The notes beneath the pieces were generated by a model. That model saw only the letters and a list, made by a program, of their open reading frames with translations. It made no database searches and had not been told where the DNA came from. Position numbers and translations under genes: made by a program. Below, one piece after another: positions 45,875 through 57,522 of a stretch of DNA of 64,000 bases; the first letter of the stretch is position 1, and each line of letters starts with the position of its first letter. The DNA comes from Paenibacillus sp. OK003 (GTDB taxonomy: Bacteria > Bacillota > Bacilli > Paenibacillales > Paenibacillaceae), in NCBI RefSeq assembly GCF_900109515.1, contig NZ_FOBD01000004.1, positions 62,001 to 126,000 of the forward strand, written 5' to 3'.

Positions 45875-47341
45875 ATGAGTTCAGTGGACGCAAAGTCCGA
45901 AAAAAGCGGAGGAATACGGGTCGGCGTTCAGAAGTTTGGACGTTTCCTGAGTGGTATGGTTATGCCGAACATGGGTGCATTTATCGCCTGGGGTTTGATT
46001 ACGGCATTGTTCATTCCAAAAGGATGGTTCCCTAACGCAGATTTTGCATTGCTGGTTGATCCAATGATCAAATATTTACTGCCTTTGCTTATCGGTTACA
46101 CAGGCGGTACCATGGTACACGGACAACGTGGTGGTGTAGTCGGTGCAATCATGACCATCGGGGTTATTGTCGGCAGTGATATTCCAATGTTCCTTGGCGC
46201 CATGATTGCCGGACCATTGGGAGCCTGGGTCATTAAGAAATTTGACAAGGCTGTTGATGGCAAAATCAAATCAGGGTTTGAGATGCTGGTTAACAACTTC
46301 TCCGCTGGTATTATTGGTGGGATTTTGGCCCTTCTAGCCCTTAAAGGCATCGGGCCTTTCGTTGAAGCGATTAGCAAGGTGTTATCGGCCGGGGTAGAAG
46401 CTTTGATGAATGCTGGTCTTCTCCCACTGGTCAACTTGATCATTGAGCCAGGAAAAGTATTATTCCTGAACAATGCCATCAACCATGGGATTTTGACGCC
46501 AATTGGTACGGATCAAGCAAGAGAACTGGGTCAATCCGTATTATTCATGCTTGAATCCAATCCAGGACCTGGACTCGGCATTTTGCTGGCATACTGCTTC
46601 TTCGGTCGCGGATCAGCCAAATCTTCCGCTCCAGGTGCTGTAATCATTCATTTCTTTGGCGGGATTCACGAGATTTATTTCCCTTACATTCTGATGAGAC
46701 CGATACTGATTCTGGCTGCGATGGCTGGTGGTGTGGCGGGTACATTGACCTTCATGCTGACAGGAGCTGGTTTGGTATCTGCACCGTCACCGGGAAGTAT
46801 CATTGCCTACTCATTGTTAACGCCTAAGGGTGGATATCTTGGCATGTTTGCAGGGGTAGCCGTAGCTGCGATCATCTCGTTCCTCGTGGCATCGATCCTG
46901 CTCAAAACAGGTAAACAGAAGGACGACGAAGATCTGGATAGTGCGTCCAACCGTATGAAGGACATGAAAAATCAGGGCAAAACGGGCAATCTCACCGTTG
47001 ATAAAGACAATCGTGAAGCTGACCGTGCGGCCGATATTGCTTCTTCGGCAGTAAAAACGGATATCAATAAAATTGTATTCTCCTGTGATGCAGGGATGGG
47101 TTCGAGTGCCATGGGTGCCTCGATTCTCCGGAAGAAAATGAAGGCAGCCGGTGTGGATGTCGCTGTAACCAACACGGCGATCAGTGAGATTCCACAAGAT
47201 GCCGACATCGTCATCACACAGAAAACATTGACAGACCGGGCCAAATCCGTGGCTCCAAATGCAGAGCATATTTCCATCGATAACTTCCTGAAGAGTCCTG
47301 AATATGAGGCACTGGTGGAGCGCCTCAAATCCGACTCCTGA
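45875..47341 (+). CDS. mtlA: PTS mannitol transporter EIICB
   Basis: A 488-residue mannitol permease. The EIIC part (about 20-345) has the family start G-R-F-L-S-G-M-V-M-P-N-M-G-A-F-I-A-W-G and the G-G-I-H-E-I-Y-F motif. A charged linker leads to the EIIB domain (about 393-488) with phosphocysteine in F-S-C-D-A-G-M-G-S-S-A-M-G. There is no fused EIIA; it is supplied by mtlF. TTGAGGAGG is the ribosome binding site. Its stop overlaps the mtlR start by one base. Confidence 0.95.
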   Translation: MSSVDAKSEKSGGIRVGVQKFGRFLSGMVMPNMGAFIAWGLITALFIPKGWFPNADFALLVDPMIKYLLPLLIGYTGGTMVHGQRGGVVGAIMTIGVIVGSDIPMFLGAMIAGPLGAWVIKKFDKAVDGKIKSGFEMLVNNFSAGIIGGILALLALKGIGPFVEAISKVLSAGVEALMNAGLLPLVNLIIEPGKVLFLNNAINHGILTPIGTDQARELGQSVLFMLESNPGPGLGILLAYCFFGRGSAKSSAPGAVIIHFFGGIHEIYFPYILMRPILILAAMAGGVAGTLTFMLTGAGLVSAPSPGSIIAYSLLTPKGGYLGMFAGVAVAAIISFLVASILLKTGKQKDDEDLDSASNRMKDMKNQGKTGNLTVDKDNREADRAADIASSAVKTDINKIVFSCDAGMGSSAMGASILRKKMKAAGVDVAVTNTAISEIPQDADIVITQKTLTDRAKSVAPNAEHISIDNFLKSPEYEALVERLKSDS

Positions 47342-49446
47342 TGAGTAATATTACAAGGAGACAGCGTGAGATCGTGGAGTTCCTGCTGGAGCATCCTCAT
47401 GAGGTAACTGCTGGCGATATAGCTGTTGCGGTCAAAGTAAGCACTCGTACCGTACATCGAGAGTTGCAGATGATTGAACAATGGCTTGAGCCCCTTGGCA
47501 TGAGATTGGAAAAAAAATCAGGAACCGGGGTTCGAATTGATCCCGGTTCCGATGATTTGGCCGTATTGCGCCAACAACTTGAGCTTAACGAATATGTGGA
47601 GTTTACGCCCGAAGAGCGTAAACTCTTCATGCTTTGTATTTTGCTGGATGAAGCTGAACCTGTGAAGCTGCTTGCATTGGCCTCAGATCTGAAGGTAACC
47701 GTGTCTACGGCGAGCAATGATCTGGACGATCTGGAGCCACGCATTCAGCTGGCGGGATTGAAGCTGGTTCGCAGGCGTGGATACGGGGTCAAGATCAATG
47801 GAAGCGAGCTGGCTCATCGCATGGCTATTTCCGCGCTCGCTCTTGAATATCTGGATGAATCCGATTTATTCGGTAGACATGCGGAGCAGGGAGTTTCCAA
47901 AGTAAACAGCAAACTTCTAGAAATGATAGGGCATGAGGATGTACTTAAAGTTGAAAATGCGTTATGGCAGCCGGATATTGAGTGGTTGGAAAATATCCCG
48001 GAGCGTCAATATATGAAGCTGCTGATTCAATTGTCAGTAGCCGTTGTGCGGATTCGGAAAGGTTTTGGCATAGGTCGGAGCACTCAACAGGACAAAAAAG
48101 ACGTTGGAAATCCTCTGCAAGATGAGCGGAAGGTGCCGGAATATTTGGCTTCACGGTTGTGCGGCGTTCTATCTGCCCAGCTTGGGCTGGAGTTTGTCGG
48201 CGAGGAGCAGGCTTATTTTCACAGGCTGCTAGTTGAAATCGAGCAATCGATTCATTCCTCGCGTCTACTGCCCATAGACGATCTGGTCTTACTCGACATG
48301 GTTCGTTCTCTTACAGATCGAATGCAGGAGAAAACTCATTATTCGTTCCATGAGGATCGTCTGCTTCGTGAAGGTCTGATTGCCCATATAGAGCCGGTGC
48401 TGGAACGAATGGATGGGCGGCAGCTCATCCGTAATCCGTTGCTTCAGCAGATCCGAAAGGATTATGAATCACTGTTTGAGGATGTAAAGTCAGCGGTGCG
48501 AGAGGCTTGGCCCCATACGGATGTGCCGGATGAGGAAATTGGTTTTTTGGTAATGCACTTCGGTGCTTCCATGGAACGGCTGCGGGTGCTGAAGCGTGAA
48601 ATCCGGGCTGTCGTCGTCTGTACGAGTGGGATCGGATCTTCACGGATGTTATCGAGCCGTCTGTCCAAGGAAATCCCCGAAATTCGGATTGTGGACAGCG
48701 TGTCCTGGTATGAAGCTGCACGTATACCGAAGACGGAATATGATCTGGTTCTCTCTACAGTGGATTTACCGATGGATAAACATCAATACTACAAGGTGAG
48801 CCCACTGCTGACGGCAGAAGAAAGTGAACGTTTAAGACACTTCATCCGGACAACGACGCTTCAGCGGGAACATAGTCCCCCACCTGAAGCAGATTCAGTG
48901 ACAACAGGACGAATTTCCGATCCGGTTGGACTGGAAGCGACCCTGATTGAAATCGTACAGATTATCGGCAAGTTTCAGGTGTTCCCGCTGGATAATCAGG
49001 ATATCGGATTTTATGAAACGGCGTACGCTATGTGCAGCGTTTTGCATCAATCCGGTGTATTGAATAATCCAGATGAGATTGCCAGGCTGCTGGAGGAGCG
49101 TGAAGCTGTTGGAAGTCAGAAGATTCCCGGAACTTCCCTCGCTCTGTTTCATACACGCAGTGATGGCATTCACAGTCCTTCAATTACGCTGTTCCAACTG
49201 ACAGAGCCGCTTCTCCGCACGCCGGAAGACCCGGCAGGTGTCAGCCATGTGCTCTTGATGCTTGGGCCGAGACAGTTATCGAAGGAAAGTTTGGAGGTAC
49301 TGAGTGAGATCAGTGCGCTATTGTTGCAGGAAGAAATGATTGCATTACTTGAAAAAGGCAACCGGGATGATCTAATTCATTACTTGTCCCAAGAACTTGC
49401 GGGATTTTACCGCAGCAAAACCGAAATTGGAGGTATTCAAACATGA
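47341..49446 (+). CDS. mtlR: Mannitol operon activator MtlR (PRD-containing)
   Basis: A 701-residue DeoR/BglG-type activator with an N-terminal helix-turn-helix (about 1-60, T-A-G-D-I-A-V-A-V-K-V-S-T-R-T-V-H-R), a second winged helix, two PRDs (about 200-400), an EIIB-Gat-like domain with the cysteine in V-V-C-T-S-G-I-G-S-S-R and an EIIA-Mtl-like domain (about 540-690). PTS phosphorylation of these parts tunes DNA binding. ATG overlaps the mtlA stop with no clear ribosome binding site, so it depends on coupling. Placing mtlR between mtlA and mtlF follows the Geobacillus-type order. Confidence 0.93.
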   Translation: MSNITRRQREIVEFLLEHPHEVTAGDIAVAVKVSTRTVHRELQMIEQWLEPLGMRLEKKSGTGVRIDPGSDDLAVLRQQLELNEYVEFTPEERKLFMLCILLDEAEPVKLLALASDLKVTVSTASNDLDDLEPRIQLAGLKLVRRRGYGVKINGSELAHRMAISALALEYLDESDLFGRHAEQGVSKVNSKLLEMIGHEDVLKVENALWQPDIEWLENIPERQYMKLLIQLSVAVVRIRKGFGIGRSTQQDKKDVGNPLQDERKVPEYLASRLCGVLSAQLGLEFVGEEQAYFHRLLVEIEQSIHSSRLLPIDDLVLLDMVRSLTDRMQEKTHYSFHEDRLLREGLIAHIEPVLERMDGRQLIRNPLLQQIRKDYESLFEDVKSAVREAWPHTDVPDEEIGFLVMHFGASMERLRVLKREIRAVVVCTSGIGSSRMLSSRLSKEIPEIRIVDSVSWYEAARIPKTEYDLVLSTVDLPMDKHQYYKVSPLLTAEESERLRHFIRTTTLQREHSPPPEADSVTTGRISDPVGLEATLIEIVQIIGKFQVFPLDNQDIGFYETAYAMCSVLHQSGVLNNPDEIARLLEEREAVGSQKIPGTSLALFHTRSDGIHSPSITLFQLTEPLLRTPEDPAGVSHVLLMLGPRQLSKESLEVLSEISALLLQEEMIALLEKGNRDDLIHYLSQELAGFYRSKTEIGGIQT

Positions 49447-49877
49447 GTGTGTTAACTAAAGATAAAGTCATCATGAATGCAACGGCTCAGGACAAATACG
49501 AAGCGATTCGTATGGCAGGTCAAATTCTGAAAGACGCGGGACATATCACCGCTGAATACATTGACAAAATGCTGGAGCGTGAAGAGATTGTCTCCACATA
49601 TGTCGGCAACGGACTTGCGATTCCACACGGCACGAAGGAATCCAAATCATTCATCCTGTCCACAGGCATTTCCGTCATTCAGTTCCCGCAAGGTGTTGAT
49701 TTTGGGGAAGAAAAAGCGTATATGGTCATTGGTATCGCCGCTCAAGGTGGAGAACATATGGAGATCCTGACCAGCATCGCAGTCATCTGCGCCGAGGAAG
49801 AGAACATGGAAGCTTTGCGTCATGCTCAAACCGCTGAAGAAGTCATCACTATTTTGGAAAGTGAAATGGAGCTATGA
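49443..49877 (+). CDS. mtlF: PTS mannitol EIIA component
   Basis: A 144-residue EIIA of the mannitol/fructose type that passes phosphate from HPr to the EIIB domain of MtlA. The phosphohistidine lies in L-A-I-P-H-G-T-K-E near residue 61. ATTGGAGGT in the end of mtlR is its ribosome binding site, and the ATG overlaps the mtlR stop. It overlaps mtlD downstream in the same way. Confidence 0.95.
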   Translation: MSVLTKDKVIMNATAQDKYEAIRMAGQILKDAGHITAEYIDKMLEREEIVSTYVGNGLAIPHGTKESKSFILSTGISVIQFPQGVDFGEEKAYMVIGIAAQGGEHMEILTSIAVICAEEENMEALRHAQTAEEVITILESEMEL

Positions 49878-51025
49878 AGGCCCTTCATTTTGGAGCAGGT
49901 AATATTGGACGTGGCTTTATCGGTTTGATTCTGTCCCGTGCAGGCTACAATGTCGTTTTCTCCGACGTCAATCAGGAGCTGGTTACGGCTCTCCAGCAGC
50001 GTGGAGAGTACACGGTTGAACTGGCTAACGAGGCCAAGGATCTGGAGACAGTTACCGGTGTGAGTGCAATCGATGGAACCAACCTGGATACTGTTGCCCA
50101 GAACGTTGCAGAAGCTGAACTGATCACAACCGCAGTGGGTGTGAACATTCTGAAACATATTGCTCCGGGTATTGCCAAAGGACTGACGTCCAGACTGGGA
50201 ACGGGTGATGTCTTCCAGCCCCTTCACATTATTGCCTGTGAAAATGCAATTGGTGCCAGCACTCAACTGAAAGAACATGTATATGGTCTGCTGGATGAGC
50301 GTACTCGCCTGCTTGCGGATCAGTACGTGTATTTCCCGGACTCTGCCGTAGATCGGATTGTGCCGATTCAGCATCATGAAGATCCATTGCATGTACAGGT
50401 AGAGCCTTTCTATGAATGGGTTGTTGACCGTTCACAAATGGCTCCTGCATTCAAACCGATTGAGGGTGTAATGTATGTGGATGATCTGGAGCCTTATATC
50501 GAACGGAAGCTGTTTACCGTTAATACGGGACACTGTATTGCCGCTTATATTGGATATGTGAACGGATATGATACGATTCAGAAGGCTATTGCCGATGAAA
50601 AAGTCAAATCCATCGTATATGGTGCCTTGCAGGAAACCGGATCCGTTTTGGTGAAGCGATTTGGATTCAATGCCGATGATCATCAGTTGTACATTGCCAA
50701 AATATTGGAACGTTTCGTTAACCCGCATCTGACGGATGAGGTAACTCGTGTAGGACGTTCACCACTGCGGAAACTGTCCCCGAATGACCGTCTGGTTCGC
50801 CCGGCTCTCCAGGCTTACGAGTATGGAACAGAGACAACACATTTGGCGATGGGGATGGCCGCTGCCTGCAAGTTTGACGTTTCCGAAGACCCGGAAGCAG
50901 TGGAACTCCAGACTACGATCCAGCAAAAAGGGATTGAAGCAGCACTCAGCCAGTATACGTCCATGGACGAGAGCCATCCTGTACTGAAACAGGCTGTAGC
51001 GCATTATCAACAAATGCAGAAGTAA
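49874..51025 (+). CDS. mtlD: Mannitol-1-phosphate 5-dehydrogenase
   Basis: A 383-residue polyol dehydrogenase that oxidises mannitol-1-phosphate to fructose-6-phosphate with NAD. The N-terminal H-F-G-A-G-N-I-G-R-G-F-I-G nucleotide motif and the K-L-F-T-V-N-T-G-H-C-I-A-A-Y block (near residue 215) are family signatures. The ATG overlaps the end of mtlF, with GGAG just before. It completes the operon and is followed by a strong terminator. Confidence 0.96.
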   Translation: MKALHFGAGNIGRGFIGLILSRAGYNVVFSDVNQELVTALQQRGEYTVELANEAKDLETVTGVSAIDGTNLDTVAQNVAEAELITTAVGVNILKHIAPGIAKGLTSRLGTGDVFQPLHIIACENAIGASTQLKEHVYGLLDERTRLLADQYVYFPDSAVDRIVPIQHHEDPLHVQVEPFYEWVVDRSQMAPAFKPIEGVMYVDDLEPYIERKLFTVNTGHCIAAYIGYVNGYDTIQKAIADEKVKSIVYGALQETGSVLVKRFGFNADDHQLYIAKILERFVNPHLTDEVTRVGRSPLRKLSPNDRLVRPALQAYEYGTETTHLAMGMAAACKFDVSEDPEAVELQTTIQQKGIEAALSQYTSMDESHPVLKQAVAHYQQMQK

Positions 51026-51063
51026 CGTTCTGTATTTCAATACAAAATAATATTGATTGAAGA

Positions 51064-51100
51064 AGAGCCTCACAGGGTTAACTGTGGGGCTCTTTATTTT
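51064..51100. terminator. Terminator after mtlD
   Basis: A 12-bp stem AGAGCCTCACAG / CTGTGGGGCTCT (with two G-T pairs) around GGTTAA, then a T-rich tail. The convergent CWC gene ends inside the hairpin. Confidence 0.88.
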
Positions 51101-51326
51101 GGTCTGTCTTCTTTTTATACGTATCCAGACATGTCTCGCAGATGCAGGACTTCCTGCGCTGGTCTGCCGGAATGGGGTCAAATACCCCTTCTGGGAACAC
51201 AGCCCGGTTACACCAGCATTCTGAATGAGGACGACCAGCGGCATAGGAGCAGCCATTGGGCTCACCGCACAAAGGACATACAAGAACTTCTGGATTGACT
51301 TTCTTTGTATCTTGCTCAACAGACAT
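51078..51326 (-). CDS. Cysteine-rich CWC family protein
   Basis: An 82-residue small protein with C-P-L-C-G ... N-x-C ... E-C-W-C ... C-I-C-x2-C, the cysteine-rich CWC pattern that probably forms two zinc knuckles. The start at 51326 follows GGAAGGAAG; the open frame upstream of it lacks a site. It lies directly downstream of the MutS2-like gene's stop region on the same strand with about 90 bases between, so the two may be co-transcribed. Function unknown. Confidence 0.78.
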   Translation of the reverse strand: MSVEQDTKKVNPEVLVCPLCGEPNGCSYAAGRPHSECWCNRAVFPEGVFDPIPADQRRKSCICETCLDTYKKKTDQNKEPHS

Positions 51327-51418
51327 ACGAGTCTTCCTTCCCCGATGAATTTCTAACCACGCACGATCGATAGGTTTATTAAAGCATAGCAACTCAACCC
51401 ATTATACCAATCCTGTGA

Positions 51419-53374
51419 TTATTCTTCAGGGGGCAATTCAATCTTCAGTCCTTCCACATGCTTGCGACTCATCAGTTTGCGTTTTTTGCGGTTCTCTTTG
51501 GTCTCCAGCACGATGTCGAGGTCATAGTCGTCGCCCGGATAAAGTTCCTGTGCAGAAATATGCAAAGTCAGGCGTTTCTTGTGAATTTTGACTTTACGTC
51601 CACGTAGCATGACTCCGATATTTCCGCGACTGTCCTCCACATCACAGACGATGCCTGACTGGTTCAGATAAGCTGCATAGACGCGATCCCCTTTTCGGAA
51701 TGCTTTGGCAGGAGGAGTAGGTTCTAATGTTTCAGGCCGATCAGCAGATTGCTCTCTTGTTTCCGTTTGTACGGACGGGCTCACAGATTTCATCTTGTTC
51801 CTTGTTTTATTTAAGTGTTCTTGTTCAACCGTACTGTTTGTTTGCGAGACACCCTGATCTGAAATGAGCTTGGATCGCTCAATAATGCGCTGTGGCATAC
51901 CCAGTTTCAGTGCAATGGAATAGGCATAGCTGTCTCCGGCTTCTCCGATCCGCAATCGATAAAGAGGCTGAAGAGAGACCGTATCGAATTCCATTCGGGC
52001 ATTCTCAAATCCAGGCGTGGCTGCTGCAAAATGTTTGATTTCCCCAAAATGGGTTGTGGCGATAACGGTAGCTCCACGGCTGTGCAGCTCTTCCAGCATG
52101 GCGATCGAGAGCCCCACTCCCTCACCGGGATCGGTACCGGAGGCCATCTCGTCAATAAGCACAAGTGTAGATGAATCGGCTTGCTCCAGAATGCCAATCA
52201 TGTTGCGAATATGTGCAGAAAAGGTACTGAGTGCTTGCTCCAGGCTCTGTCCATCGCCGATATCAACAGCAACTTCATGATATACGGCCATCTCGCCATT
52301 TTCAGCGACAGGCACAAGCAGACCAGATTGCATCATCAAGGTGAGCAGACCCAATGTTTTGAGCGCAACCGTTTTGCCACCCGTATTCGGCCCGGTAATG
52401 ATTAGTGAGGAATACGTCTGACCGATTGCAAAATCAAGCTGAACCATGGATGCACCCATAAGCGGATGGCGGGCATGATGAATCCGAACCCGTCCATTGG
52501 CATTGACACGTACAGTCCGTCCGTCCATGGTGGCCGCATATTTCGCTTTGGCGAACAGGAAATCCAGAATACCTACCGTTTCCGTATTTAACGATATTTC
52601 ACGATGATAAGACTCTGCCAGGGAGGTTAAGTCACCGAGGATTTTCATCTCCTCCCGTGATTCCTCGGCTTGCAGTGAAGCGAGCTCCATTTGCAGACCT
52701 ACTAACTCAGCAGGCTCGATATATACGGTTTGACCACTTCCCGATTCATCCAGCACACTGCCTTTAACGTGTTTGCGGAATTCTTTCTTAATGGGCAGCA
52801 CGGTTCTTCCACTACGCTGACTAATCACATTTTCCTGCATGATGGAGCGGTGTTTGCTTATAAGAGAATCCAGCTTGCGCTTCATGCGTTCCTCATTCAC
52901 CGTCATTTTTTTACGAATACGTATCAGCTCCTTGCTTGCCTGATCTTGAATGCGTCCACTATGGATACAACGTTCAATCTCGCTCAGCAGGGATTCCATC
53001 CATATCATGGATGAAGCGTAGCGACTAACTGTGGGGGCCACTTCGGATTTGCCCTCCATGTATTTCATAAGCTGTGCGCAGCTGCGAAGAAATTGGGCGA
53101 GATGGCTGAAATCACGTTCCGTAAATAAATAACCGGTGCCTAGCAGATCCATAATGGTCTCCATGCCATCCAGTGATGGAATGGGCACGCTGGCGCCGTT
53201 ACGAATCAAAGCAGCCGCTTCAGCGGTCTCTTCCAGACGCATTTGAATCAGAGGAGCGTCCACCATTGGTTTCATGTCTCTTGCATAACGTTTGCCCAAA
53301 TAAGATAGGGCACAGTTAGCAACGTTTTTTTGAATTTGTGGATAACCCAAACTGGTTAATGTTTTTTCATTCAT
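51419..53374 (-). CDS. MutS2-like ATPase lacking the Smr domain
   Basis: A 651-residue relative of MutS2 (RqcU), which acts on DNA recombination intermediates and, in Bacillus, on collided ribosomes. The core has a MutS lever/clamp coiled coil (about 30-285) and the ATPase with Walker A G328-P-N-T-G-G-K334-T, Walker B 404-410 (L-V-L-I-D-E-M) and T-T-H442. A linker and a KOW-like barrel (about 555-625) follow, and the protein stops where MutS2 (about 785 residues) would continue into the Smr nuclease domain. AAGGAGAGATC precedes ATG 53374. A long attenuator-like leader lies upstream. It is probably a paralogue rather than the main MutS2. Confidence 0.85.
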   Translation of the reverse strand: MNEKTLTSLGYPQIQKNVANCALSYLGKRYARDMKPMVDAPLIQMRLEETAEAAALIRNGASVPIPSLDGMETIMDLLGTGYLFTERDFSHLAQFLRSCAQLMKYMEGKSEVAPTVSRYASSMIWMESLLSEIERCIHSGRIQDQASKELIRIRKKMTVNEERMKRKLDSLISKHRSIMQENVISQRSGRTVLPIKKEFRKHVKGSVLDESGSGQTVYIEPAELVGLQMELASLQAEESREEMKILGDLTSLAESYHREISLNTETVGILDFLFAKAKYAATMDGRTVRVNANGRVRIHHARHPLMGASMVQLDFAIGQTYSSLIITGPNTGGKTVALKTLGLLTLMMQSGLLVPVAENGEMAVYHEVAVDIGDGQSLEQALSTFSAHIRNMIGILEQADSSTLVLIDEMASGTDPGEGVGLSIAMLEELHSRGATVIATTHFGEIKHFAAATPGFENARMEFDTVSLQPLYRLRIGEAGDSYAYSIALKLGMPQRIIERSKLISDQGVSQTNSTVEQEHLNKTRNKMKSVSPSVQTETREQSADRPETLEPTPPAKAFRKGDRVYAAYLNQSGIVCDVEDSRGNIGVMLRGRKVKIHKKRLTLHISAQELYPGDDYDLDIVLETKENRKKRKLMSRKHVEGLKIELPPEE

Positions 53375-53442
53375 GCTTGATCTCTCCTTGGTAATAAAAA
53401 TGAATTTCGGTTTAAGCGATGGGACATATTCCCGGAAAACGC

Positions 53443-53482
53443 AAAAAGGGCGGAGAATGAACAAACGTCATTCTCCGCCCTT
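53443..53482 (-). terminator. Second terminator in MutS2-like leader
   Basis: A 15-bp perfect stem, AAGGGCGGAGAATGA / TCATTCTCCGCCCTT, with a 7-base loop and a T-run on the minus strand. It lies 70 bases before the start codon. Confidence 0.85.
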
Positions 53483-53517
53483 AACGTAGGGGAAAGTAGG
53501 GCCCGTTATAGGTCTAT

Positions 53518-53548
53518 AAAAAAAAATCCACGCTGAACACAGCGCGGA
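53518..53548 (-). terminator. First terminator in MutS2-like leader
   Basis: Minus-strand stem TCCGCGCTG / CAGCGTGGA (one mismatch or G-T) with a four-base loop, followed by nine T. It is flanked by GGTCTAT (53556-53550) and ATAGACC (53517-53511), which can close an outer helix around hairpin and T-run. Confidence 0.8.
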
Positions 53549-53693
53549 AATAGACCCGGACACGTACAATCCCGGAGGCGATTTATGATATCCGCTGTTC
53601 TTAACTAAGTACAGGGTAGTGGCGCATCATGAAACACACGTATGCCACAAGGCACAAGTGAATCGAAGGCCAAACTCCTGAATATGAAACTTG

Positions 53694-53717
53694 TTAGTTA
53701 AGAACGCTCACCGACAT
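53694..53717 (-). CDS. Putative leader peptide MSVSVLN
   Basis: A 7-codon ORF (M-S-V-S-V-L-N, then TAA) on the minus strand. AAGGAGA (53732-53726) stands 8 bases before its ATG, as good a site as those of real genes here. Codons 5 to stop (GTT CTT AAC TAA) are exactly the 5' arm of the 12-bp leader helix, so a ribosome on these codons would prevent the helix from forming. It is probably a regulatory ORF and the product has no role of its own. Confidence 0.6.
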   Translation of the reverse strand: MSVSVLN

Positions 53718-53751
53718 CAAAATCTCTCCTTTGATTGAGGAATATGCAACC

Positions 53752-53781
53752 AATATAAACTGGAAATTGCCTTGAAGTCAA
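53752..53781 (-). promoter_or_regulatory. Promoter of MutS2-like leader
   Basis: Minus-strand TTGACT (53781-53776), 18-base spacer, TATATT (53757-53752). It would start the transcript near 53745, just upstream of the leader-ORF ribosome binding site. Confidence 0.65.
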
Positions 53782-53948
53782 CCTTCAATAATAAATAGTG
53801 GACTTGAATAACGATGGGTTTTAAAATAACAATAGTAAATTAATCCAATGAAAGCGATATTATACATACGTTTTGCATTCGATCGGGAAGCGATCCCAAA
53901 ATCGTTCTCGTTCAAATCACGCAAAATGCACAAAGGAGGATGCTCTTT

Positions 53949-56285
53949 TTGCCTAAATACCTGCTGCGTTTGCTCTGTTTTACGATGATTCTTGGAGCCC
54001 TTCCGGTCATCGTTATTGGTTCAGTCTCCTATTCGATTGCTTCACGCGACATTGAGCAGAAGGTGCGGGAGAGTAATTTGCAGATTCTGCATCAGACCCA
54101 AATGCGGGTAGAGCAAGTATTGCGCAGCCTGCAATTATCGTCCATCCAATATGTGAATTCTCCACTGGTATTACAAGCGATGAAAAAATCGCTGGACAGC
54201 AGCGAATTTCAGGAAATTCGTGATCTGACTTCCGGATTTAATAATCTGCAATCGGTGACTAATATTGATCAGGCCTATCTCGTGAATCTGGATGAAGACT
54301 GGGTCGTTTCAATGCGTTCCTTTGGAAAATTGGATGATTTCAGTATTCGGGACCGGATAGGCTCTTATTTGAAATATACAAACAGCCTGTTCTGGGTGAC
54401 GCAAAATGTGAGTTCAACCAAAGAGAGTGTGCCGGTATCAGCGGGAGTTGGTGAAGCGACACCGGAGCACGCACCTACCCTTATTTCATCCGACAACGTG
54501 GTCAGCATGGTATTCAAGATTCCGATGATACCAACGAATGTGAAACCCAAGGGATTTCTGGTTATAGACATAGCCGATACAGAGCTAAGTACATTTCTAA
54601 GCCGAAATCCAAATTCAGGAGATATGTACGTCCTTGATCGGGAGCAGAAATATTTTCTCAACGACACAGAACAAGACGGGAAATACGACGCGCTGAATCA
54701 GGAAATCCATGAAAAGGTCCAAGAGACGGGACAATCGGAGGGGTTCTTCAGTGCAGAGGTGGAGGGAAGCCAGGTGGCGGTTAGCTATAGGCAATCTCCA
54801 CTCAATGGCTGGTTGTATGTGTCCGTTGTATCGCTGAGTCAGATCACCGCCCAGTCGCAGAAAATTGCATTGGTTACGGGAGTGGCTACCTTAGTCATGT
54901 TATGTTTGACGGGACTAGTAGCCATCTACGGCAGTCGCAAGATGTATTCTCCCATTTCCAGACTTCTGCAGTTTACAAAAGGACTGGATTCTCCATTGGC
55001 TCCGTCGGGACGCCGTCAGGATGAATTTATATACATCGAAGAGCGATTAACTACCTTGTTCAGCTCGGAGAAAACGATGCGTGAGCAGATGAAGGGCCAG
55101 CATGTTCATTTACAGGAATTTTTTATGACCAAACTGCTTACAGGCAAGATATCGGAAGATGACTTCAGATATCAGGGTCAGTTATATGATTTTCCAACCT
55201 CATGGTCCAGACTTGGGTTACTTACACTTCAGATCGATACCCTTGAAGGGACAAGGTATGAAGAGCAGGACCGGGATCTGCTGCTGTTTGCGTTAAACAA
55301 TATGGTCGGTGAACTGCTGCCCTCTGAGATACGTTTTGCACCTGTCATGATTGATGACGCCCAGGTTACGGTGCTGGCATCCGTGTTGGATGATGAAGTA
55401 CAGCTAAAAGAGTGGATGCACACTCAAGCCGAATTGATCCGTGAGCGGGTCGTGACCTATCTGAATCTGCCTGTAAGTATCGGTATTAGTCGCTCCTATT
55501 CTGCAATAGGTGATTCACCAAGGGCTTACCAGGAGAGTCGTGAGGCGCTGCAAGGCAGGGTAAGTCTGGGCAGCCGTATTATTTTGCATTACGAGGATAT
55601 TCAGCCACGAGGTCAGACGGAGGCAGCGTTATATACACAGCTCAGGATGATTGAGGACCAGTTGGCTTCTGCACTCAAGCAAGGGGACGAGGAGAAAACC
55701 GATACATACTTTAAGAGGTATCTTGGATTGCTCTCAGACAAGAAGCTGCACTTTAGCGAATATCCCGTTATCATGGTTCAGCTGTTGTCCCGTGTGTATC
55801 AGCTTGTACAGGAGCAGGGTGGCAATGTCGCCGAAGTGTTGGGTGAAAAGGCCTCTATGGCTCGACTACTCAAATTGTCTACATTGGATGAAATGACGAA
55901 CTGGTTCCGCAAATGTTTATTTCAACCTGTCATTCGATTCTGGCGTGAACAGGAAGAATCTCAATATCTGAATATTGCCCGGCGTATGATTCGGCTGATT
56001 GAGGAGCGATATGATCGCGAATTGTCGCTGGAAGCTTGCGCAGAAGAACTGAATTTTCATCCGGTTTATTTGAGCCGTGTGTTCAAGAAGGAGGCTGGTG
56101 TGAACTTTACGGAATACCTTGCCGAATACCGGATGGAAAAAGCCAAAACCTGGCTGCAGACGACCAATCTGAAAATATCGGAAATTGCCGAGAAACTCAA
56201 TTACACCAACCCTACCGCTTTTATCCGTACATTTCGTAAAATTACGGGAACCACCCCCGGAAAATACCGGGAGCAGCAGCGATAA
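53949..56285 (+). CDS. Membrane AraC-family regulator (YesS-like)
   Basis: A 778-residue regulator with two membrane helices (about 5-27 and 297-318) enclosing an extracellular Cache-like sensor of roughly 265 residues, a cytoplasmic linker region and a C-terminal AraC helix-turn-helix pair (about 675-778, with F-H-P-V-Y-L-S-R-V-F-K-K-E-A-G and the L-N-Y-T-N-P-T-A-F-I-R-T-F-R-K-I-T-G-T-T-P-G motif). YesS-type regulators control pectin-oligosaccharide genes, as here. The TTG at 53949 is set by AAAGGAGG at 53932-53939; the ATG at 53940 touches that site. Confidence 0.9.
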   Translation: MPKYLLRLLCFTMILGALPVIVIGSVSYSIASRDIEQKVRESNLQILHQTQMRVEQVLRSLQLSSIQYVNSPLVLQAMKKSLDSSEFQEIRDLTSGFNNLQSVTNIDQAYLVNLDEDWVVSMRSFGKLDDFSIRDRIGSYLKYTNSLFWVTQNVSSTKESVPVSAGVGEATPEHAPTLISSDNVVSMVFKIPMIPTNVKPKGFLVIDIADTELSTFLSRNPNSGDMYVLDREQKYFLNDTEQDGKYDALNQEIHEKVQETGQSEGFFSAEVEGSQVAVSYRQSPLNGWLYVSVVSLSQITAQSQKIALVTGVATLVMLCLTGLVAIYGSRKMYSPISRLLQFTKGLDSPLAPSGRRQDEFIYIEERLTTLFSSEKTMREQMKGQHVHLQEFFMTKLLTGKISEDDFRYQGQLYDFPTSWSRLGLLTLQIDTLEGTRYEEQDRDLLLFALNNMVGELLPSEIRFAPVMIDDAQVTVLASVLDDEVQLKEWMHTQAELIRERVVTYLNLPVSIGISRSYSAIGDSPRAYQESREALQGRVSLGSRIILHYEDIQPRGQTEAALYTQLRMIEDQLASALKQGDEEKTDTYFKRYLGLLSDKKLHFSEYPVIMVQLLSRVYQLVQEQGGNVAEVLGEKASMARLLKLSTLDEMTNWFRKCLFQPVIRFWREQEESQYLNIARRMIRLIEERYDRELSLEACAEELNFHPVYLSRVFKKEAGVNFTEYLAEYRMEKAKTWLQTTNLKISEIAEKLNYTNPTAFIRTFRKITGTTPGKYREQQR

Positions 56286-56297
56286 AAGCAACCTGCT

Positions 56298-56324
56298 CTG
56301 CCTGCCATGGCAGGCAGGTTTTTC
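56298..56324 (+). terminator. Terminator after YesS-like gene
   Basis: A 20-base perfect palindrome CTGCCTGCCATGGCAGGCAG followed by GTTTTTC. The 210 bases beyond it up to the cre-like site hold no gene. Confidence 0.9.
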
Positions 56325-56535
56325 TTTGTTTCAGGATCAGCCTTTATTCTGCGTTTGCAGCAGAGTTAAGACAGGAATATCGGAGGTTAAATGTGGTTCA
56401 TTAAGGGCAGCAGCCCAGAATTACAAATGCCTTAAACCCTTGCTGCATAAGGGAAACCAAGAAGCTAAAACGAGATGATAGCCAGTTACCCGTTTATCCT
56501 CCACAATGAAGATATGAATTCAGGAAGTGATATTT

Positions 56536-56549
56536 TGTAATCGTTTCCA
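56536..56549. promoter_or_regulatory. cre-like site at start of LplB-type permease gene
   Basis: TGTAATCGTTTCCA matches TGWAARCGYTWNCW at 13 of 14 positions. It ends only 4-5 bases before the GGGGAGGA ribosome binding site, a position where CcpA would act as a roadblock in the leader. Confidence 0.65.
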
Positions 56550-56568
56550 ATGTGGGGAGGAAGACACT

Positions 56569-57522
56569 ATGAAAGCCGAAACGGCGGCTCGGACACGACC
56601 CGCTACCCGCAGTGACAAAAACCTGCTGTGGAGGGACATTATCAAAAACCGGTGGCTCTATATTATGTTGATACCGGGCGTGCTCTACTTTGTTATTTTC
56701 AAATACATACCCATGTACGGCATTACGATGGCTTTTCAGGATTACACGCCTTACAAGGGCATCCTGGGCAGTGATTGGGTAGGGTTCAAGCACTTCCAGC
56801 GTTTCTTCGGGGAACCGCAGTTCTGGACCTTGTTCCGGAATACGTTTTTGCTAGCGATTTATAATATGGTGTTCTTCTTCCCGCTGCCAATTGTATTGGC
56901 ACTGATGATGAATGAAGTTCGCCGCGAACGGTTCAAACGCTTTGTACAGACGCTGGTATATGTTCCGCACTTTGTATCCTGGGTTGTTGTGGTTGGTGTG
57001 TTCTACATGCTGTTCACAACCGAGGGTGGCGCTATTAACGAATTACTTTATAACCTGACGGGACAAAAAGTAGCTTTCCTGCTTGAGCCCGGCTGGTTTC
57101 GAACGATGATTGTTGGACAATCCATCTGGAAAGAGGTAGGCTGGGGCACGATTATTTTCCTGGCGGCACTCTCCGGTGTAGATACACAGCTCTATGAAGC
57201 TGCACGGATGGATGGTGCCAATCGCTGGCGTCAGACGTGGCATATTACGTTGCCTGCCATCCGCAGTACAATCATTATTTTGCTCATTCTGCGTCTGGGT
57301 AACTTCCTGGATACAGGCTTTGAACAGATCTTCCTGATGCTCACGCCGACGAACCGGGATGTGGGTGAGGTATTTGATACCTACGTCTACACCAAAGGTC
57401 TCACACAGGCACAGTACAGTTATAGTGCTGCTGTTGGTTTGTTCAAGTCGGTGGTCGGACTGGCACTTGTACTGGGTGCCAACACGATGGCCAAAAAATT
57501 CGGGGAGGAAGGCGTCTACTAA
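56569..57522 (+). CDS. Oligosaccharide ABC permease, LplB type
   Basis: A 317-residue permease with six membrane helices and the family start of LplB/YtcP-partner proteins (Y-I-M-L-I-P-G-V-L-Y-F ... Y-I-P-M-Y-G). The EAA loop that contacts the ATPase is E-A-A-R-M-D-G-A-N-R-W-R. The ATG at 56569 follows GGGGAGGA. With the next permease it forms the membrane channel for (rhamno)galacturonan oligosaccharides; the ATPase (MsmX-type) is probably encoded elsewhere. Confidence 0.93.
   Translation: MKAETAARTRPATRSDKNLLWRDIIKNRWLYIMLIPGVLYFVIFKYIPMYGITMAFQDYTPYKGILGSDWVGFKHFQRFFGEPQFWTLFRNTFLLAIYNMVFFFPLPIVLALMMNEVRRERFKRFVQTLVYVPHFVSWVVVVGVFYMLFTTEGGAINELLYNLTGQKVAFLLEPGWFRTMIVGQSIWKEVGWGTIIFLAALSGVDTQLYEAARMDGANRWRQTWHITLPAIRSTIIILLILRLGNFLDTGFEQIFLMLTPTNRDVGEVFDTYVYTKGLTQAQYSYSAAVGLFKSVVGLALVLGANTMAKKFGEEGVY

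Follow-up and report, generated by a model that had tools for sequence, protein, structure and literature searches.

Layout of the locus

In the window, by which we mean the whole 64-kb stretch of DNA analysed, a promoter-like site, a strong Shine-Dalgarno (SD) site and a 7-codon ORF on the minus strand open a leader of approximately 370 nt in front of a 651-aa gene, a MutS2 paralogue (51419–53374, start at 53374; identified by profiles and a structural model). All leader features described below lie on this strand. A site scan located the sigma-A-like promoter, TTGACT-N18-TATATT, at 53752–53781; as 2 promoter-like sites were found in the 1-kb region and 2.3 were expected, the promoter call alone is not significant. 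By eye, 17 of the 20 relatives listed have TTGAC ahead of the leader. The leader SD is AGGAG (53726–53730), and the ORF is ATGTCGGTGAGCGTTCTTAACTAA (53694–53717), read as MSVSVLN* from its translation and from relatives. Promoter, ribosome binding site and ORF are thus located as a sequence-only reading of this DNA had claimed, the promoter with the reservation just given.

Codons 5–7 and the stop of the ORF, GTTCTTAACTAA (53694–53705), are arm 1 of a helix, P1, assigned as the anti-antiterminator. Arm 2 is TTAGTTAAGAAC (53597–53608), and both arms were called by covariation and folding. By sequence, an upstream ORF (uORF) with its own SD therefore appears to overlap the anti-antiterminator helix. 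The two arms form a perfect 12-bp duplex, 85 nt apart, as had been seen for GTT CTT AAC TAA in the sequence-only reading, and the helix turned out to be longer than claimed there. A lower helix joins GATGTC (53718–53713), which holds the start codon, to GATATC (53592–53587), as judged by folding and covariation, and GGAG of the SD (53729–53726) can pair with CTCC (53577–53574), 3' of arm 2. Because P1 pairs the start-codon region and the SD, the complete helix hides the leader's own ribosome binding site. No other perfect 12-bp inverted repeat with a 40–150 nt spacer occurs in the window; since 9 of 30 first-order Markov resamples of the window hold at least one, the repeat alone is no proof. 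The plus strand opposite 53587–53730 also reads as an SD-like site followed by a short VLN* ORF, and because the leader is nearly its own mirror image, leader models give antisense matches.

The 3' end of arm 2 and its flank make up the antiterminator strand, GAACAGCGGA (53591–53600), assigned by pairing score and folding. The hairpin of the first terminator, T1, lies at 53527–53548 with its U tract at 53526–53518 (terminator scan, pairing tests). Hairpin and U tract are enclosed by a further helix, P3, with GGTCTAT (53550–53556) as 5' strand and ATAGACC (53511–53517) as 3' strand, called by folding and permutation. The second terminator, T2 (53446–53482), carries at its apex TGTTC (53463–53459), complementary to GAACA, which is the end of arm 2 plus one base. 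Terminator-like sites numbered 3 versus 1.0 expected, T1 and T2 among them. The SD of the main gene, AAGGAG (53384–53389), was read from the sequence. The predicted folding energy of the leader as a whole (53742 to 53440) is -122.9 kcal/mol; 100 shuffles give -77.5 ± 5.1, so that z is -8.9.

A cysteine-rich ORF of 104 aa (51078–51392) closely follows the MutS2 paralogue on the same strand and may be cotranscribed with it. The convergent plus-strand genes at 47341–51025 are presumably mannitol PTS regulator-, PTS IIA- and mannitol-1-phosphate dehydrogenase-like.

Conservation and competing pairings of the leader

The leader is widespread. A 66-nt core was found by blastn in 239 of the 392 genomes of the order, and a covariance model built from 25 leaders (R1) matched 277 of the 392; among the 66 genomes of the same genus listed, only G017 and G037 had no R1 match. 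In the class, R1 matched 48 of 299 genomes, 23 of the 48 being outside the order. A broader model (R2) matched 15 of 398 phylum genomes, and its seven matches outside the class were weak (35–40 bits) and checked by eye. Leader homologues occur in Bacillaceae and Clostridia. An exact-pattern scan of named genomes gave at least 119 stretches at at least 80 loci; the matches listed come from Paenibacillus, Brevibacillus, Saccharibacillus, Bacillus, Neobacillus, Mesobacillus, Priestia and others, and also from Acidaminobacter, Geosporobacter, Tissierella and Oceanirhabdus, which we take to be Clostridia. The pattern fixed SD, start and arm 1 and did not cover MSV-type leaders, so the ORF is necessarily conserved in this set and the counts cannot be read as frequencies. 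Arm 2, which lay outside the pattern, was found by regular expression in 71 of the 80 loci among the matches listed. The window genome has a single leader copy.

Rfam 15 gave no match at E ≤ 1 in positions 50000–57000 of the window; seven distant loci gave five weak matches, none above the gathering threshold. A known Rfam RNA is thereby rejected at that threshold, in line with the sequence-only reading, whose author knew of no named RNA family built like this. The words MutS2 and Paenibacillus are absent from the main text of the Breaker-lab 50-genome survey, and among the titles and abstract beginnings listed from open PubMed Central papers, none dealt with a leader-controlled MutS2 paralogue. 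With neither an Rfam match nor a paper in the open PubMed Central search, the leader family was not found named.

Conservation of the ORF was assessed on 60 relatives taken from BLAST and model hits, whose selection did not depend on the ORF pattern. All 60 had an SD-like site, a start and an in-frame stop, and 55 ended in VLN*. The variants on record are VLK, VLY, VLS, ILN, VQI and ELTN; the ending is ILN in L008 and VLS in L155, L156 has one extra codon, and L149 has lost the arm-1 stop. Directly after the leader stop, AATTYCATA (alignment A1 columns 54–61) is nearly invariant, which exceeds what partial pairing before arm 2 explains.

Both arms of P1 vary together. For the P1 model (lower helix including GATGTC/GATATC, 12-bp core and upper helices), 88 distinct leaders gave 147 cells changed on both sides versus 59.5 ± 8.2 after shuffling, in an alignment (A3; 97 loci given, 7 below threshold, 90 matched) that was fitted to the P1 model and leans towards it. 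None of 500 shuffles reached 147, and slid versions of the model scored lower. Changes on both sides affected 14 of 26 pairs, and the 12-bp core was paired in 98.3% of cells. Compensated core changes include TAA/TTA to TGA/TCA (L071, L072), CTT to CTG with AAG to CAG, which retains VLN (L154, L304), and AAC to AAA with GTT to TTT, which yields VLK (L298, L302, L303); the change of AAC to TAC in arm 1 of L170/L171 (VLY) is uncompensated. The sequence-only reading had made its proposal dependent on conservation of the leader ORF and both arms, and SD, start, in-frame stop and both arms are indeed kept from Paenibacillus to Clostridia, with compensatory changes. A chance helix is ruled out by this conservation and covariation.

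Terminators, P3 and the P1 loop were analysed on 164 leaders, 162 of them with a T1 and 104 unique. Identical leaders and loci with less than 330 nt behind arm 1 were left out, as were L179, L218, L220 and L231, whose arm 2 fell outside the search range (an arm-2-like sequence is present in each). In the window, GAACA and GCGGA (53600–53591) can pair with TGTTC and TCCGC of T1, as the sequence-only reading had noticed, and antiterminator and T1 covary among relatives. The bases after arm 2, which are CGGAT, CGGC, CAGC, CGGT or CACG depending on the leader, match the 5' base of the leader's own T1. Over the 104 unique leaders, the score for pairing of the antiterminator with its own T1 was 12.07, compared with 10.36 ± 0.18 when T1 was permuted (maximum of 500 permutations, 10.94). 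With the first detection of T1, which often took a wrong hairpin or T2, the difference was weaker (10.28 vs 9.68 ± 0.16). The excess persists inside three sequence groups (0, 21 and 5 of 1000 permutations score as high); these groups are defined by flank sequence and not by taxonomy, and permutations in general do not fully remove relatedness. In 11 of the 104 leaders there was no convincing match (score under 9).

By sequence and folding, the antiterminator and the intrinsic terminator are mutually exclusive. When the window leader is folded up to the T1 loop as free RNA, 11.4 pairs of the P1 core and no antiterminator are predicted; if the ORF is masked instead and T1 is only half formed, the prediction includes 5.8 antiterminator pairs. 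With the T1 hairpin finished, masking of the ORF no longer keeps the terminator from prevailing at equilibrium, so that the switch must work kinetically. The earlier suggestion that a stalled ribosome would free an antiterminator is supported by the covarying switch and by folding with T1 half formed, with the limit that the capture would have to precede completion of T1.

T2 and P3 are two features outside the model of the sequence-only reading. Of 104 leaders, 94 have a second U-tract hairpin before the gene; in these it is stronger than T1 (mean -22.6 vs -12.8 kcal/mol). Its apex reads GTTC in 77 of the 94, compared with 6 of 166 other terminators at the same loci. At least five Watson-Crick pairs between the T2 apex and the end of arm 2 with its flank are possible in 70 of 94 leaders, versus 13 of 166 controls, which may include the antisense side of two-way terminators, and 17.9 ± 3.6 with a shuffled apex. 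Divergent leaders fit this match as well, L299 with AATGAACA and TGTTCATT, L298 with AAGAACA and TGTTCTT. Covariation of arm 2 with T2 is small overall (4.96 vs 4.71 ± 0.07) and not significant within sequence groups, 268 and 1000 of 1000 permutations reaching the observed value, so the T2 apex stays a candidate second antiterminator contact. No upstream sequence was found that pairs with the entire 5' arm of T2; a weak excess was seen only in the stretch from arm 2 to T1 (-9.23 vs -8.82 ± 0.20).

For P3, the leader's own duplex energy was -12.59, against -8.91 ± 0.26 for permuted strands, and it was below each of 200 permutations within each group. This helix can form only in read-through RNA. 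The P1 loop contains TTNTTT in 75 of 104 leaders, compared with 47.5 ± 4.3 in shuffles; the window's own loop is among the 29 without it. A hairpin lies just upstream of the motif in 54 of the 75, which is the layout reported for NusG pausing in yxjB and vmlR.

Genes downstream of the leader

The leader family precedes unrelated genes, which is a new observation. Among the matches listed, the first recognised gene is a MutS2 paralogue in 51 of the 80 named loci and a BpsA-like gene, encoding a putative methyltransferase, in 19. The other 10 listed comprise eight loci with less than 750 nt of downstream DNA, L246, where the gene looks like a broken MutS2 paralogue, and L229, with a class I methyltransferase. 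A set of 60 loci, selected among the search hits so as to favour second copies and outgroups and sharing some loci with the named set, contained 36 paralogues, 18 BpsA-like genes, 5 GNAT genes and one weakly APH-like kinase. Eleven genomes have leader copies before two different genes. Paralogue and BpsA-like gene are both under a leader in G092, G093, G113, G131, G295, G300, G337, G391, G544 and G649, and paralogue and GNAT gene in G004. No BpsA_C gene was found in the window genome. A BpsA-like ORF comes after the paralogue in L136–L138, as a fragment in the case of L136, and in L161 the GNAT gene is 1.9 kb from the leader. Genome G108, of the window's species, has a second leader copy (L155) that encodes MSAVVLS* and precedes the gene of a 343-aa protein matching APH weakly (PF01636, 3e-5).

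In genomes of other classes, the leader stands before an ABC exporter gene pair (L306; the leader peptide of bmrBCD, which controls such a pair in B. subtilis, is longer) and before an ABC-F gene above the NCBIfam cut-off (L301/L305). The best PDB sequence matches of the ABC-F product are 8buu and 6ha8, the latter presumably VmlR. The former is VmlR2 (PMC10201436). A VmlR-like gene is thus itself a target of this leader family. The sequence-only reading had stated that leaders of this kind control antibiotic-resistance genes, and the homologous leaders found before the VmlR-like ABC-F gene and the ABC exporter pair agree with it, this being the class expected for antibiotic-stall attenuators.

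The MutS2 paralogue matches the MutS2 core only (TIGR01069, 582 bits, 1–529 of 790), and it has matches to MutS2 in PDB and by Foldseek. Walker A is kept in all 74 full-length paralogue ORFs, the SMR domain (PF01713) was detected in none of 33 paralogues, and PF20297 (KOW/SH3) in 2 of 33. The canonical MutS2 of the window genome carries an SMR and an SH3 domain. In the model of the window paralogue (mean pLDDT 84.7), a C-terminal five-strand barrel is seen at 564–606. Six paralogues of other genera align over 646–674 residues at 36–58% identity, the canonical MutS2 aligns to the window paralogue over 514 residues at 35%, and a Clostridial paralogue is no closer by identity than the canonical copy. 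Sequence comparison suggests that the paralogues are an old separate family. For MutS2 of B. subtilis, splitting is reported to depend critically on the ATPase, and some function to remain in SMR or KOW mutants (PMC10897456). The likeliest function of the paralogue would be that of a ribosome-splitting factor without the collision-binding SMR domain.

All four BpsA-like proteins scanned match BpsA_C (PF01861; E 1e-40 to 1e-43), and all 34 examined contain a GDDD motif. DPPY is present in the same number (L065, L140, L166 and 31 more), and the DPPE of the solved BpsA 5xnc is not. DPPY marks amino-methyltransferases. C-terminal CxxC pairs are invariant in 17 aligned proteins. Given DPPY in place of DPPE, together with the CxxC pairs, the BpsA-like proteins could equally well be nucleic-acid methyltransferases or polyamine synthases, and they are possibly an RNA methyltransferase family.

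A candidate sensor of stalled ribosomes

The anatomy and conservation of the leader, the covariation of P1 and of the antiterminator with T1, and the use of the leader before several targets are computational observations. We consider it very probable that the leader is a ribosome-mediated transcription attenuator, in which a stall on the ORF unlocks arm 2 for read-through of T1, and perhaps of T2, into the SMR-less MutS2 gene. Freely translating ribosomes would leave the 7-codon ORF fast; arm 1, SD and start codon would then pair with arm 2 and its surroundings as P1, and with arm 2 locked, T1 (and T2) would form and the gene would be off. A ribosome lingering anywhere on the ORF, be it at start, elongation or stop, would mask arm 1. 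Freed arm 2 and its flank could then capture the 5' base and loop of T1 before the hairpin closes, so that RNA polymerase reads through, and the antiterminator may also act on T2 by capturing its apex before closure. Induction would come from stalled ribosomes, most likely caused by ribosome-targeting antibiotics, and the product, a second, SMR-less MutS2, probably splits or recycles them.

Mainly translational control, in which ribosome binding sites would be hidden by P1 or T2 and termination would be of minor importance, survives best among the alternatives and is nonetheless unlikely. P1 does pair with the leader's own SD, and both layers are reported to be combined in vmlR (PMC9226507) and cplR (PMC10201436), but 94 of 104 leaders have, besides T1, another hairpin with a U tract, and T2 of the window does not include the SD of the main gene. 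In amino-acid attenuation, uncharged tRNA would slow the Val, Leu or Asn codons and turn the gene on, as in trp or ilv leaders. The position of the ribosome on the ORF would be the signal here too, and 55 of the 60 leaders not selected by ORF end in VLN*; however, there are few codons per amino acid, VLK, VLY, VLS, ILN, VQI and ELTN variants occur, and the recognised targets are not biosynthetic genes for Val, Leu or Asn, which makes this explanation quite improbable. We rate at the same low level the binding of a protein, for example the MutS2 paralogue, or of a ligand to the P1/T1 RNA, with an incidental ORF. The arms and AATTYCATA are more invariant than pairing needs, as such binding would predict, but SD-like site, start and in-frame stop are retained in 60 of 60 leaders examined and two compensated changes keep VLN (L154, L304). 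The targets are, moreover, unrelated proteins, so that autoregulation by one product is no explanation. T1 and T2 resemble ordinary intrinsic terminators, but that they are merely a non-regulatory conserved terminator pair of an upstream transcript is hardly credible with a promoter-like site, SD and ORF in front and with P1 and antiterminator covarying.

As a stall-responsive attenuator, the leader would work like that of vmlR, and its target appears analogous to hflXr. The B. subtilis vmlR leader also has a short uORF inside an anti-antiterminator, a competing antiterminator, an intrinsic terminator and a resistance target (PMC9226507). It carries a TTNTTT NusG pause motif, which here stands in 75 of 104 P1 loops but not in that of the window. 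In contrast to vmlR, with its uORF MIN (PMC9226507), the ORF described here has 7 codons, mostly ends in VLN-stop and has its stop inside the helix, and there are two terminators, a helix around T1 and unrelated targets under one leader family. One family over unrelated targets, the stop inside P1, tandem terminators and P3 are thus variant features. In Listeria, the hflXr attenuator places a ribosome-splitting-factor homologue under a small-ORF transcription attenuator, as here, but with a 14-aa ORF containing an RLR motif (PMC6310831); the MutS2 paralogue belongs to another protein family and its leader has no RLR. The yxjB leader of B. subtilis is similar in having a terminator and a pause hairpin; the latter caps a hairpin expected to block leader-peptide translation as well, and the target is an rRNA methyltransferase. 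This leader differs in its RYR arrest motif for tylosin (PMC6851288). For the toiL uORF of E. coli, a stall anywhere on the short ORF has likewise been proposed as the signal, so that several drug classes are sensed, but it acts via topAI translation and Rho on one target operon (PMC12121999). The bmrBCD leader is comparable, by its description, in ribosome-mediated transcription attenuation of an ABC exporter pair (PMC4191407), cf. L306.

The genes under this leader family resemble a regulon of the vmlR type, controlled in cis by ribosome stalling. A broader reading, to which we give somewhat less than even weight, is that of a Bacillota-wide RNA class by which stuck ribosomes are sensed in general. 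A single 7-codon ORF and a single antiterminator strand, opening T1 at its base and loop and T2 at its apex, would then serve at least five unrelated, probably protective families as a regulon without a regulator protein, with the SMR-less MutS2 as main effector and the BpsA-like RNA methyltransferase as second.

The papers cited describe stall-sensing uORFs gene by gene, and uORF consensuses are reported to vary among ABC-F genes even when these confer a similar resistance spectrum (PMC10201436). With a leader common to the MutS2 paralogue, BpsA-like, GNAT, ABC-F and exporter genes, hitherto unknown genes for ribosome protection could be traced by guilt by association with the attenuator. Such a leader also predicts that MutS2 lacking the SMR domain is a new, inducible factor for ribosome rescue, as the analogy to HflXr suggests, and that the BpsA-like protein is a new candidate for an enzyme of RNA modification.
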